The translations under genes and the position numbers were made by a program. The notes below the pieces were generated by a model that was given only the letters and a program-made list of their open reading frames with translations, was not told the DNA's origin and did not search any database. Of a stretch of DNA of 64,000 nt, positions 23,958-29,437 are shown one piece after another. Source of the DNA: an uncultured Acidimicrobiales bacterium (GTDB taxonomy: Bacteria > Actinomycetota > Acidimicrobiia > Acidimicrobiales > SHLQ01); contig CALLQB010000010.1 in NCBI GenBank assembly GCA_938015295.1, positions 26,544-90,543 on the forward strand. Reading direction: 5' to 3'. Every line of letters begins with the position of its first letter. The stretch's first letter is position 1.

Positions 23958-26900
23958 TCAGGCCACCGGCACCGCGGCTGCCGGTGCGCCCACCCGGTCG
24001 TCGCTCGTGACCTTCTCGCTGACAACACGTGAGGAACCGCCCGGCTGCATGCTGACGCCGTAGAGGATGTCGCCGGCCTCCATCGTGCGCTTTTGGTGGC
24101 TGACGATAAGCAACTGCGCTTCGTCGCGGAACTCTTTCACCAGTTCGAGGAATCGGTGCAGGTTCACATCATCGAGTGCGGCCTCGACCTCGTCCATGAC
24201 ATAGAACGGCGAAGGCCGAGAGCGGAACACGGCAAACAGGAAGCCCATCGCTACGAGCGTGCGCTCGCCACCACTCAGCAACGAGAGTTTCTTCACGTTC
24301 TTGCCTGATGGTTTGGCCTCGATCTCGATTCCGGTGTTGAGCGGATCGTTCGGCATCGTGAGTCGAATCCGACCAACGCCACCGGGGAACAACTTGCCGA
24401 AGAGATGTTCGAAGTTCTGTGAGACGTCAGCGAACGCCGACGCGAACACGTTGACGATTTCTTCATCGATCGATCGAATGACCTTTGCGAGGTCGCGCCG
24501 GGTGCCACGCACATCATCGAGCTGACTCTGCAGAAATTCGTGACGCTCCTGCAGCTGCTCGAACTCTTGCAACGCCAGTGGGTTGATGGGCCCCATGACC
24601 TTGAGTTCGCGTTCGAGGTCGCGAACCCGGGCCGCTGGTTTCACGCCCTCGGCGAGTTCTGGACACTGGGCTTCGAGCGCTGCACCAGGTTCGATGTCGA
24701 GGTCACGTCGAAGAGATTCAACCGCCGCCTCGACACGGAGCTTTACTTCGGTTTGCTCAAGCTCGACCCGGCCGGTGAGCTCACGTAGCTGCTCGAGACG
24801 TCGTTCAAGCTGATTGCGTTGCTTGCGCAACGAATCGAGGTTGGTGGCGATTGCCTGTTGGGTCTCGCTTTGCTTGCGGCGACGTTCACGAATGTCGTCT
24901 AGTTCGAACTCGATGGTGCCGAGTCGGTTCTCAACGACCGACGCAAGTTTCTTGACGATGGCTTCACGGCGGTCGAGCTTGAGACGCGTCGCTTCTACCT
25001 CGGCAAGCGACTCGGCGTGCTCAACGAGCTTGGCATCGACATCGGTAAGTCGGCTGCGAAGTACCGAGCGGCGCTCCTCAACCGCGGCAGCCCGAACTTC
25101 AAGGTCGGTCCGGAGCGACGACACCGCTGCGGCCCGCTCGTCGAGACTCATACGCTCGACATTCATCGCTTTACCTTTTTCGACAACCGCCTGCTCGGCC
25201 GCCTCAAATTCCGGCAACGATGACTGGAGTTCGGCAACCCGTTGCTGATCGCGGTCGGACCGGTCGGTCAACTCGGCGACACGTACCTGCAGCGACTCGA
25301 GTTCGACGGTAGCTTCGCGCTGGTCGCGAGCCAGTCGCTCGAGACGCTCGGTGGCCGCGACCATACGAGAATCGGTGGCATCGAGCTGTTGACCAACCCG
25401 GTTGTGCTCGGCTTTGGCCTCGCCAACCTTGGTCTTGGCTTGGGCTTGGCGGTCCCGCAGCTCGGTCAGTCGCTCCATAAGCACGGCGACGGCTGCCTCG
25501 GCGTCATCGAGCGCGCCCTTGGTCGCTCCGGCGCCGCCAGCGCCGAGGCGCCAGCCTCCGGGGCCGAATCGGTCGCCTTCACGGGTAACGACAACCCGGC
25601 CAGGCGAAGCGATGGCCTGATCGAGTGCGGCAGTCCACTCACCGTCGACGACGTCGACGTTGAGTAAAAGGCGGTCGAGGAGTTCGTCGAGGCCGGGCCG
25701 CAACGCACGCACCCGGGCTCGGAGGCCACCATTGCTCGCCCCAGAGGCTGCTGCTGGTGCTGCGGCGATGAGGACCTCACCGCCAAGATCTTCTTCGCTG
25801 AGCTTCGACAGGGCTCGACGGGCAGCGACATCGCCCTCGACGACGATGCCAGCAAGCGCTGGCCCCACCGCTGCTTCAAACGCTGCTTCGAAACCGTTGT
25901 CTACATCGACGAGTTCGACGAGTGTGCCAAGCACGCCGTCGATACCGGCAAGCGATTCAATACCGGCTGCGGTTCGGGCTTCGTCGAGGGCTAGTTGCAG
26001 TGCTTCGATACGCGCCTGGCCAGCGTTGAGTTCGCGTTCGGCTAGCGCGGCTTCTTCGTTGACAGCTTCGGCGGCCTCGGTCGCGCTAGCAAGTTGCGCT
26101 TCGAGCGCCGTGATGGCCTCGACCAGTGGTTCTTCGTCGGACTCGGCCGACTGCATCGTGGTAACGAGCTCAGTGCGTTTGCCGTCGAGTTCGCCGAGCA
26201 CCTGCTCGAGTTGGGTGATGCGTTCGGAGAGGCGGCTCCGCTCGGCAACCGCTCGCTCGACTGAAGCGCTGAGCGCACCAAGCTCGCCGCGGACCTCAGC
26301 GGCACGACCCGTGGGTGGCTCGACACCTTCGGCCCAATCTTTTTCGAAAGACTCGCGTAGCCCTGCGAGTTCGGCGTCGGCGAGCCGAACCCGTTCGGCG
26401 TCGGGTTTCAGGCCGAGTGCTTCACGCTCGACCTCATCAAGGTCGGACCGCAGGCGGGCGGACTCGGATTCGAGAGTCGCCACGACAGCCTGATCGACAA
26501 ACGCGTCGCGGTCGCGGGAAATGCCCTGCCGCCGCTGCTCGAGCACCGCAACAAGGCCTCGCGAGCGTTCGCGGATCGACTCATAGCGCACGAGTGCATC
26601 GCCGATATCGGCGCCGCCCTGGGTCGACAGCTGCGATTCGGCGGTAGCGACGGCGGTATCGAGTCGTGCCAGTTCGTCTTTGACCTGGCGAGTTTCGACA
26701 ACAAGCTCGTTACGTTTTTCTCGTTGCGATTGTGTCTGAGTGTGCAGACGAGCAAGCTGTTGACCAGCGACAAAAACCTGCAACGCGTGAAGCTCGTCGA
26801 CCAGATCGCCGTGTCGGCGTGCGGCGTCGGCCTGGCGTTCGAGAGGACGAAGTTGTCGCCGAACCTCGCGCAACAGATCTTGTACTCGGGTGAGGTTCGC

Positions 26901-27455
26901 CTCGGTTGAGTTGAGGCGACGTTCCGCCTTTTCTTTGCGCTTGCGGTATTTGAGGACGCCAGCCGCTTCCTCGATAATCATGCGCCGGTCTTCAGGGCGA
27001 GCGTTGAGCACCTGGTCGATCTGTCCCTGCGACACGATGACGTGCTGCTGACGGCCGACGCCAGCGTCGCTAAGCAATTCTTGGATGTCGAGCAGGCGGC
27101 AGGGTGCCCCGTTGATCATGTATTCGCTGTCGCCGCTGCGGAACAGCACGCGCGTGACCGTTACTTCGGTGAACTCAATCGGCAGAACACCGTCGCTGTT
27201 GTCGATGGTGAGTGAAACCTCGGCGCGGCCAAGGGCAGGGCGCTTTGCGGTACCAGCGAAGATGACATCGTCCATCTTCTGACTTCGGACCGCACTGGGC
27301 GCTTGGGCACCAAGTACCCAGGCGACGGCATCGACAACATTGGACTTACCCGACCCATTTGGACCCACCACAACGGTGACTCCCGGCTCAAGATCGAGCT
27401 GGGTTGCGTCGGCGAAAGACTTGAAGCCCTTCATGGTTAACGACTTCAGGAACAT
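23958..27455 (-). CDS. smc: Chromosome segregation protein SMC
   Basis: MFLKSLTMKGFKSFADATQLDLEPGVTVVVGPNGSGKSNVVDAVAWVLGAQAPSAVRSQKMDDVIF...; hinge; LLSGGERTLVAMGFLFAVF...FYVMDEVEAALDDVNLHRFL. Confidence 0.97.
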   Translation of the reverse strand: MFLKSLTMKGFKSFADATQLDLEPGVTVVVGPNGSGKSNVVDAVAWVLGAQAPSAVRSQKMDDVIFAGTAKRPALGRAEVSLTIDNSDGVLPIEFTEVTVTRVLFRSGDSEYMINGAPCRLLDIQELLSDAGVGRQQHVIVSQGQIDQVLNARPEDRRMIIEEAAGVLKYRKRKEKAERRLNSTEANLTRVQDLLREVRRQLRPLERQADAARRHGDLVDELHALQVFVAGQQLARLHTQTQSQREKRNELVVETRQVKDELARLDTAVATAESQLSTQGGADIGDALVRYESIRERSRGLVAVLEQRRQGISRDRDAFVDQAVVATLESESARLRSDLDEVEREALGLKPDAERVRLADAELAGLRESFEKDWAEGVEPPTGRAAEVRGELGALSASVERAVAERSRLSERITQLEQVLGELDGKRTELVTTMQSAESDEEPLVEAITALEAQLASATEAAEAVNEEAALAERELNAGQARIEALQLALDEARTAAGIESLAGIDGVLGTLVELVDVDNGFEAAFEAAVGPALAGIVVEGDVAARRALSKLSEEDLGGEVLIAAAPAAASGASNGGLRARVRALRPGLDELLDRLLLNVDVVDGEWTAALDQAIASPGRVVVTREGDRFGPGGWRLGAGGAGATKGALDDAEAAVAVLMERLTELRDRQAQAKTKVGEAKAEHNRVGQQLDATDSRMVAATERLERLARDQREATVELESLQVRVAELTDRSDRDQQRVAELQSSLPEFEAAEQAVVEKGKAMNVERMSLDERAAAVSSLRTDLEVRAAAVEERRSVLRSRLTDVDAKLVEHAESLAEVEATRLKLDRREAIVKKLASVVENRLGTIEFELDDIRERRRKQSETQQAIATNLDSLRKQRNQLERRLEQLRELTGRVELEQTEVKLRVEAAVESLRRDLDIEPGAALEAQCPELAEGVKPAARVRDLERELKVMGPINPLALQEFEQLQERHEFLQSQLDDVRGTRRDLAKVIRSIDEEIVNVFASAFADVSQNFEHLFGKLFPGGVGRIRLTMPNDPLNTGIEIEAKPSGKNVKKLSLLSGGERTLVAMGFLFAVFRSRPSPFYVMDEVEAALDDVNLHRFLELVKEFRDEAQLLIVSHQKRTMEAGDILYGVSMQPGGSSRVVSEKVTSDDRVGAPAAAVPVA

Positions 27456-27499: not shown

Positions 27500-27581
27500 A
27501 CGAGATTTCGCGTGGCAGCCCCCACAACCCCAAATCTCGTGACACAGAGCGACAAAGTTTGTCGCCTGGTGTCACGAGATT
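27500..27581. repeat. Nested inverted repeats between the mutM-like gene and smc
   Basis: AATCTCGTGACAC(27533-27545)-AGA-GCGACAAA-G-TTTGTCGC-CTG-GTGTCACGAGATT(27569-27581). ACGAGATTT (27500-27508) is also complementary to AAATCTCGT (27532-27540). Confidence 0.85.
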
Positions 27582-27584
27582 CCG

Positions 27585-28418
27585 CTAGACCTGGGTTTCG
27601 CAGTAGTAGGTGACCGAGCCGTTGAACTTGGTTTTCATGATCGGGGCTCGCGAGCGAGGGCTCAATTCACCCTCACGCTCAAACACCTGCAGGTGCTCCT
27701 GGTACGTGCCAGGCTCGCTAAAGAGGTCGAGATAGTTGTTCTTGTCGGTGCTGGTTCCGCGGTACTTCATGGCGTCGTGCAGGGTCTCGACCAGTGCCCG
27801 GTACAACCGCCGTACTTCCTGGCTTGAAAGCGAGCTGCTGCTGCGGTCGTATTTCAGCCCGGAGGTGAAAAGGATCTCATCGGTATACATCGTGCCAATA
27901 CCGATAATGATCCGCTCGTCGGTGAGGAAGGTCTTGAGTGCCGTGTCGTGGTGCCGAAGCAACTCGCCAAAATGGGTCCATGACAACGGTTCTGCCACCG
28001 GATCGAGTCCAAGCACCGCCATGTCAGCCGTGGCCTCTTCAACGTCCTCGGCGGCAATGATCCGCAAATCGCCCTTGCCCTTGGGGTCGACGAAACGCAA
28101 TTGGCCGTGCTGGGTGAACGTGATGACAACTTCGGTGCCGTCGGCAACCGCTTCCTTATTGGTTGCTCGCTGAGGACGCATCGACTTCGCCATGTCGATC
28201 ACCAAGACGTCTTCGGTATCGAGCGTAATGAGGATACGAAGACCAATCCGTTCGACGCCGGTCATCTTTACGCCGTCGAGAGGCGCGGTGAAACCTTTGC
28301 GGTTCTTATACGAGCTGAGCAGCGACATGCTCTCGGCGTCGACTGACTTCACCTTCTTGCCAATAACTTCGCGCTCGAGATCGCGACGGAAGGTTTCTAC
28401 CTCGGGAAGCTCAAACAT
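27585..28418 (-). CDS. MutM/Fpg-family protein, predicted catalytically inactive (degenerate active site and zinc finger)
   Basis: MFELPEVETFRRDLEREVIGKKVKSVD... GIGTMYTDEILFTSGLKYDRSSSSLSSQEVRRLYRALVETL... REGELSPRSRAPIMKTKFNGSVTYYCETQV; clear MutM fold signature with active-site substitutions. Confidence 0.88.
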   Translation of the reverse strand: MFELPEVETFRRDLEREVIGKKVKSVDAESMSLLSSYKNRKGFTAPLDGVKMTGVERIGLRILITLDTEDVLVIDMAKSMRPQRATNKEAVADGTEVVITFTQHGQLRFVDPKGKGDLRIIAAEDVEEATADMAVLGLDPVAEPLSWTHFGELLRHHDTALKTFLTDERIIIGIGTMYTDEILFTSGLKYDRSSSSLSSQEVRRLYRALVETLHDAMKYRGTSTDKNNYLDLFSEPGTYQEHLQVFEREGELSPRSRAPIMKTKFNGSVTYYCETQV

Positions 28419-29202
28419 CGGCTTGTGCCCTCTCGTCGAGTGTCGGCCGGGATTCGGGACGTTCTGTCATCGTCTCATTCGTTGTGTTGTCGGAGGGCGG
28501 CGAAAGCGCCGCCCATGCTTCTTCGGCCGCGTGTTGCTCGGCCTGCTTTTTGGAGGTTCCGGTACCGCTCCCGCGAGCGATTTGGTCGATCACGACCGTC
28601 GCCAGGAAACGTTTGTTGTGATCGGGGCCAGACTCTTCGACTGTGTACCCCGGTGGCGCATGCCCAAGGTGGGCTACCAGCTCTTGAAGTCTGGTCTTGT
28701 AATCACCTGCACCTGGGCCGGCGGCAGTGACATCTTCAATTTGTTCGCCGAGTAGTCGGATAACAAGCGCCTTGGCTGGTTCCCACCCACCGTCGAGGTA
28801 CACCGCCCCGATCAGCGCTTCTACCGCGTCGGCAAGAATGGAGGACTTGGTGCGACCACCGGACGCATCCTCCCCTCGCCCAAGCCGCAGATGCGGACCG
28901 ACCTGAATCCGTCGAGCGACGTGCGCCAACGAGGGCGCGCTCACGACCGCGGCCCGCACTTTGGCAAGCTCTCCCTCGGAGTGATCGGGAAACAGCCGGT
29001 AAAGCTGATCGGTTACCGCAAGTCCGAGAACGGCGTCACCAAGAAATTCCAGCCGTTCATTTGGCTCATCGTCGGTGACCTCGGCGACCCAGCTTCGATG
29101 CGTCAAGGCAAGACGAAGCAGTTCGGGGTCGCCAAAATTGTGGCTGAGTCGTTCGCTGAGTTCGAGAGCGCCGGCCGGCTCAGCCGGTGCGGGCAACGAC
29201 AT
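28411..29202 (-). CDS. rnc: Ribonuclease III
   Basis: LALTHRSWVAEVTDDEPNERLEFLGDAVLGLAVTDQLY...ILADAVEALIGAVYLDGGW...DYKTRLQELVAHLG...ARGSGTGTSKKQAEQHAAEEAW; start at ATG 29202 overlapping the acpP 3' end. Confidence 0.95.
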   Translation of the reverse strand: MSLPAPAEPAGALELSERLSHNFGDPELLRLALTHRSWVAEVTDDEPNERLEFLGDAVLGLAVTDQLYRLFPDHSEGELAKVRAAVVSAPSLAHVARRIQVGPHLRLGRGEDASGGRTKSSILADAVEALIGAVYLDGGWEPAKALVIRLLGEQIEDVTAAGPGAGDYKTRLQELVAHLGHAPPGYTVEESGPDHNKRFLATVVIDQIARGSGTGTSKKQAEQHAAEEAWAALSPPSDNTTNETMTERPESRPTLDERAQADV

Positions 29203-29437
29203 AATCCACTGCGTCCCGCACAGTTTTGAGATCCTCAAGATCTTCGTCTTCGATCCGGAAACCAACGGTTCGTTCGCCGACTTCTTCTTCGAGCGCTTCT
29301 ACGAGCTCAATGAGAGCGAGGGAATCGGCTTCAAGGTCGTCCTGGAAGGAATCGCCCTCACCGATGGTGTCGGGCTCGATCTCAAGAATGTCGGCCAAAC
29401 GGTCACGGATGAGCGCTAGTACTTCTTCGCGATTCAT
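29180..29437 (-). CDS. acpP: Acyl carrier protein
   Basis: MNREEVLALIRDRLADILEIEPDTIGEGDSFQDDLEADSLALIELVEALEEEVGERTVGFRIEDEDLEDLKTVRDAVDYVVARTG (DSL phosphopantetheine site). Confidence 0.93.
   Translation of the reverse strand: MNREEVLALIRDRLADILEIEPDTIGEGDSFQDDLEADSLALIELVEALEEEVGERTVGFRIEDEDLEDLKTVRDAVDYVVARTG

Follow-up and report, generated by a model that had tools for sequence, protein, structure and literature searches.

What does a gene do in the position of mutM when its product keeps the fold of this DNA-repair enzyme and has lost catalytic residues? The question is raised by an open reading frame of 277 amino acids on the minus strand of a 64,000-nucleotide stretch of DNA from an uncultured Acidimicrobiales bacterium (hereafter the window). 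The reading frame is real and lies in the following surroundings:

27585..28418, minus strand: MutM-fold pseudoenzyme gene (MFELPEVET...YYCETQV; domain searches, alignment and AlphaFold2 model)
28411..29265, minus strand: rnc (RNase III), the upstream neighbour, overlapping the pseudoenzyme start by 8 nt (Pfam)
23958..27455, minus strand: smc, the downstream neighbour (Pfam)
27525..27590, minus strand: long near-perfect hairpin in the gap separating the pseudoenzyme stop and smc (MFE -36.1 kcal/mol, z -6.4)

The ATG overlaps the stop codon of rnc (ATGTTTGA), and the 129 nt that separate the gene from smc contain the strong hairpin, which is not followed by a T-run on its 3′ side. Pfam searches, which identified RNase III and SMC, also placed an acyl carrier protein and PlsX among the further neighbours. 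A conserved smc-mutM-rnc locus had been proposed from the letters alone (the sequence-only reading), and the neighbours confirm it: sitting between rnc and smc, the window gene is orthologous by position to the mutM of actinobacteria (rnc-mutM-smc).

Membership of the MutM/Fpg superfamily is equally clear at the level of the fold. Both the N-terminal Fapy and the H2TH domains are recognised by Pfam (Fapy_DNA_glyco, 1.6e-15; H2TH, 1.5e-17) and appear in an AlphaFold2 model built from 61 sequences (pLDDT 93.1, pTM 0.88). Bst MutM aligns with the protein over its full length (7.6e-36), and the top matches of the model in the PDB are all MutM (1r2y, TM 0.85), so that the fold likeness called obvious by the sequence-only reading is borne out. 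With 163.1 bits, the protein nonetheless scores under the TIGR00577 equivalog cut-off of 203.3. In MutM, Pro1 and Glu2 catalyse, and Met75, Arg109 and Phe111 are inserted into the DNA (PMC5422863); mutations of Arg108, Asn168 and Arg258 in E. coli Fpg impair base eversion (PMC4737139). Alignment to characterised MutM residues located the following changes:

28413..28415, minus strand: codon 2, Phe for the catalytic N-terminal Pro (MFELPEVET), overlapping the rnc stop codon
28239..28241, minus strand: codon 60, Leu for the phosphate-contacting Lys of RRxKYL (RIGLRIL)
28185..28196, minus strand: codons 75-78, DMAK for HLGM with its lesion-probing His and Met (DMAKSM for HLGMSG)
28074..28082, minus strand: codons 113-115, KGK for the Arg/Phe wedge of DPRxFG (DPKGKG)
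27891..27893, minus strand: codon 176, Thr for the Asn of GxGNIYxDE, N168 in E. coli (GIGTMYTDE)
27600..27662, minus strand: zincless finger, residues 253-273 (S253 P R255 S256 R257...S268...C273 for CxRC...R...CxxC)

Every motif quoted by the sequence-only reading, which named no strand, is present in the translated frame and in the alignment, and each substitution that it listed is correct. The nucleophile (Phe2), the Lys, Asn and finger Arg (L60, T176, S268) and the Met/Arg/Phe wedge (K78, K113, K115) are thus gone, and the Cys4 finger, here SPRS...GSVTYYCETQ, has lost three cysteines and retains only the third, C273. Also kept, and passed over in that reading, are the catalytic glutamate (E3; E2 in mature numbering), the LPE helix cap, and the LK and YxDE motifs of the H2TH domain.

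Lost catalytic residues, and an ATG that overlaps the rnc stop, could be taken to mean that the gene is a decaying pseudogene, or a frame kept solely for translational coupling of rnc and smc. The distribution and the evolution of the gene contradict this. Of the family's 19 genomes, 18 carry it, and it adjoins rnc and smc wherever the contig permits a check. All 18 copies are degenerate; canonical residues were looked for at this locus in these close relatives and occur in 0/18. The best 80 matches in named GTDB genomes comprise 71 degenerate copies, some of them from Candidatus Microthrix and from single-cell genomes, and none of these 71 contains an internal stop. Sequencing or assembly noise is ruled out by the same two counts, and the presence of canonical MutM at the locus in distant families points to repeated loss with retention, not to noise. 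Pairwise dN/dS ranges from 0.018 to 0.14 in unsaturated pairs, the same as for rnc and smc in the same genome pairs and not above that of canonical locus copies; two more divergent pairs gave 0.27 and 0.35, again like their own rnc and smc. Selection is therefore strongly purifying at the amino-acid level; certain residues are invariant across classes, and the strong hairpin intervenes between the gene and smc. Decay or mere coupling can be dismissed with near certainty, and the protein, with its catalytic residues lost, its fold kept and dN/dS well below 1, is a pseudoenzyme under selection, as the sequence-only reading had supposed.

A search of the same genome found a second MutM: a fully canonical gene, here called MutM2 (G000:C60:22110-22910), is one of six genes with Fpg/Nei domains. 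A contaminant origin of MutM2 was discarded, as congeners carry it as well (74% identical in G003). Across the order and the class, the locus holds either a fully canonical MutM (C) or a degenerate one (D), with few intermediates. In other families of the class, the canonical locus MutM (for example in L051, L060 and L102) resembles the window protein in its neighbours, in 45-53% identity and in the RRxxR helix, D139 and R255, but keeps every catalytic residue, and a MutM2-type second MutM was not found in such genomes. Among 130 genomes scored in the order, mostly MAGs in which incomplete assembly may account for a ‘missing’ MutM2, a canonical locus copy occurs without MutM2 in 73 and with it in 0, and a degenerate copy occurs with MutM2 in 51 and without it in 5, one intermediate also being without it (Fisher p=1e-30 for locus state against MutM2, ignoring relatedness). 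The pattern recurs in other classes of the phylum: f85, f93, f97, f108, f115, f122 and f142 are degenerate, nearly all with a second canonical MutM, and f90, f91, f117, f120 and f125 have one MutM.

Individual genomes add detail to this picture. No canonical MutM2 was found in G072/G144, G035 or G298, though the degenerate copy is kept; the first two are congeneric (L045/L047), with genomes of 1.9-2.0 Mb at 95-96% completeness and no canonical MutM found. The intermediate copy (L044 in G023, f6) retains Pro, Glu, Lys, His, Arg and Cys4 and has lost the wedge Met and Phe, the Asn and the finger Arg; MutM2 was not found in this genome. An apparent exception in f90, a canonical locus with a second match, was set aside, the second matches belonging to a different Fpg/Nei subfamily. 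A tandem MutM duplication in f97 was likewise rejected: at the rnc-smc locus of L416 and L417, the gene directly adjoining the degenerate copy is an Fpg/Nei paralogue of another subfamily, ending LADRRRSRFLR. Two MutM2 genes are themselves unusual, that of L457 (G470) carrying an in-frame repeat insertion in its N-terminal domain (GGADEIPEGLRSTHGVGAA repeated) and that of L455 (G337) being split over two frames by a frameshift or an assembly error. Lastly, the locus MutM of f91, f125 and f128 in other classes (L361-L368, L370, L371, L373-L379, L381 and L382) has all active-site residues but Pro1. It starts (A/G)TG-GAG, placing Met1-Glu2 in register with Pro1-Glu2; in L361 a stop codon immediately precedes the GTG start, and in the five such genomes searched it is the sole strong MutM match. 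To judge from these starts, the nucleophile would be the alpha-amine of the retained initiator Met.

The residue pattern of the two states was compared over 110 degenerate and 121 canonical locus copies. In the degenerate set, the wedge Met and Phe are present in 0%, Asn in 5%, R108 in 6% and Lys in 8%; Asn is frequently replaced by Asp, and the finger Arg by Lys. The zinc ligands, too, are often missing. E3 persists in 74% and Pro1 in 26%. This frequent retention of E3, seen in the window protein too, is a point against a non-catalytic reading, and would be expected of a glycosylase or AP lyase that is still active through altered chemistry, with another N-terminal amine or with E3 alone; zincless fingers also occur in relatives that are active, NEIL1 among them (PMC9266487). 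However, the N-terminal residue is free to vary (P, L, A, I, T or F), the wedge, Asn and Lys are almost always lost together, and Pro1 is described as needed for activity (PMC4737139). We therefore regard residual enzyme activity as very improbable.

How often, then, was catalysis lost? Had an ancient inactive paralogue spread or been sorted among lineages at the same locus, no repeated loss in place would be needed. The degenerate copies of the class do group on some gene trees, and on the gene tree computed without active-site columns a single clade for the class alone is not rejected (p 0.18). The same tree requires three changes and rejects one clade of all degenerate copies (p 0.006), and the rnc+smc tree of the class rejects a single degenerate clade (p-AU 9.3e-6). 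Moreover, family f72 (100/100 support) holds both states on the rnc+smc tree, canonical copies without MutM2 being sister to degenerate copies with it. Apart from the class-only gene tree, a single origin is thus rejected by neighbour-gene and gene trees; an ancient paralogue is an improbable account, and the repeated origin of degenerate copies is well supported. The rows of the phylum tree comprise 55 canonical copies without MutM2, 0 with it, 49 degenerate copies with MutM2 and 8 without. The phylum-wide neighbour tree gives 5 independent contrasts on well-supported branches and 10 on all branches; over the 5 supported contrasts, MutM2 changes in the same direction in 4.3 on average and in the opposite direction in none (median p 0.125). 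With relatedness allowed for, the association with MutM2 hence points one way throughout but is statistically limited, as some five supported contrasts do not reach p<0.05 alone.

Other residues have been kept in the degenerate copies. R57, D139, Y178, E181, R203, R204 and R207 are present in 98-100% (R203, R204 and R207 in 98-99%), and K24, K218, R255 and R257 in 95-96%. Three of these are more conserved in degenerate than in canonical copies: K218 (95 against 59%), K24 (95 against 66%) and R257 (95 against 74%). R203, R204, R207, R255 and R257 occur together in 14/14 copies of f85, 21/21 of other classes, 3/3 of f72 and 2/2 of f65. Several lie in one element of the predicted structure:

27765..27824, minus strand: predicted long helix, residues 199-218, with R203, R204, R207 and K218 kept in all independent degenerate lineages (AlphaFold2, conservation)

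A helical wheel would place R203, R207 and K218 on one face of this helix. The overall charge has moved the other way: degenerate copies have a median pI of 6.0 and a charge of -3.7, canonical locus copies one of 9.3 and a charge of +7.6, and MutM2 a pI of 9.2; the window protein itself is acidic (pI 5.4, net charge about -8.5).

These observations bear on the suggestion of the sequence-only reading that the protein is a repurposed DNA-binding or RNA-related protein, that is, a dead enzyme still acting on nucleic acid as a reader of lesions, junctions or structured RNA. The retained H2TH domain, the invariant R203, R204, R207, K218, R255 and R257 and the adjoining rnc and smc would suit such a reader. 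However, the backbone contacts (Lys, Asn and finger Arg) and the Met/Arg/Phe wedge are lost, and the Asn to Asp and Arg to Lys changes common here are damaging in E. coli Fpg, where N168D is the worst change at its position and R258K is no better than loss (PMC4737139). Nucleic-acid binding is disfavoured because of these lost contacts together with the charge shift, and we consider this part of the earlier suggestion unlikely.

We favour instead, as the probable reading, a pseudoenzyme with a pre-existing non-catalytic role, presumably in protein interaction, in a genome where repair is left to MutM2. The ancestral MutM of the locus would have combined two jobs. In lineages with MutM2, the excision of 8-oxoguanine would have passed to that enzyme, leaving the locus copy with only its second, non-catalytic job, which would be older than the loss of catalysis. 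Protein-protein interaction, as a scaffold or regulator, appears the likeliest such job, since the copies are acidic and yet hold K24, R203, R204, R207, K218, R255 and R257 invariant, although these basic residues could instead form structural salt bridges. Possible partners are products of the gene's own neighbourhood, RNase III and SMC, or proteins of repair or replication.

Compared with MutM/Fpg (TIGR00577, PF01149+PF06831; Bst MutM 1R2Y/1L1T), the window protein shares the whole fold, the H2TH domain, the locus and about 31% identity, and differs in lacking the nucleophile, Lys, His/Met, Arg/Phe wedge, Asn, finger Arg and three zinc cysteines, in its acidity and in its sub-cut-off score. 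Pseudoenzymes of known families are already known, and two kinds of Fpg/Nei protein are the nearest precedents. Human NEIL1 and Arabidopsis FPG also have a finger without zinc ligands, but these are active enzymes in which the finger Arg is retained (PMC9266487). Mycobacterium tuberculosis Fpg2 (Rv0944) is an Fpg family member that lacks the catalytic N-terminus and coexists with an active Fpg1; it is truncated and encoded elsewhere in the genome, whereas the window copy is full-length and at the mutM locus (PMC2734929). In the open literature, to which the search extended, we found no description of a full-length, conserved and repeatedly derived pseudo-MutM at this locus.

The wider meaning of these copies is that of a repeated natural separation of function, in which catalysis was deleted several times and the rest of MutM was kept. 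As a tentative generalisation, which we hold to be possible and somewhat short of probable, the rnc-smc MutM of actinobacteria may be bifunctional, combining 8-oxoguanine excision with a conserved non-catalytic role through K24, R203, R204, R207, K218, R255 and R257 that is selected even in the presence of a second MutM, while catalysis is repeatedly removed. From the degenerate copies, a textbook DNA-repair enzyme is predicted to have a non-catalytic role as well, and particular residues are marked out as candidates for it. Many Fpg/MutM annotations at the rnc-smc locus are probably not glycosylases, and some degenerate copies (f59; G455, G337 and G327 of f85; f122) exceed the TIGR00577 equivalog cut-off, so that automatic genome annotation overestimates the capacity for repair.
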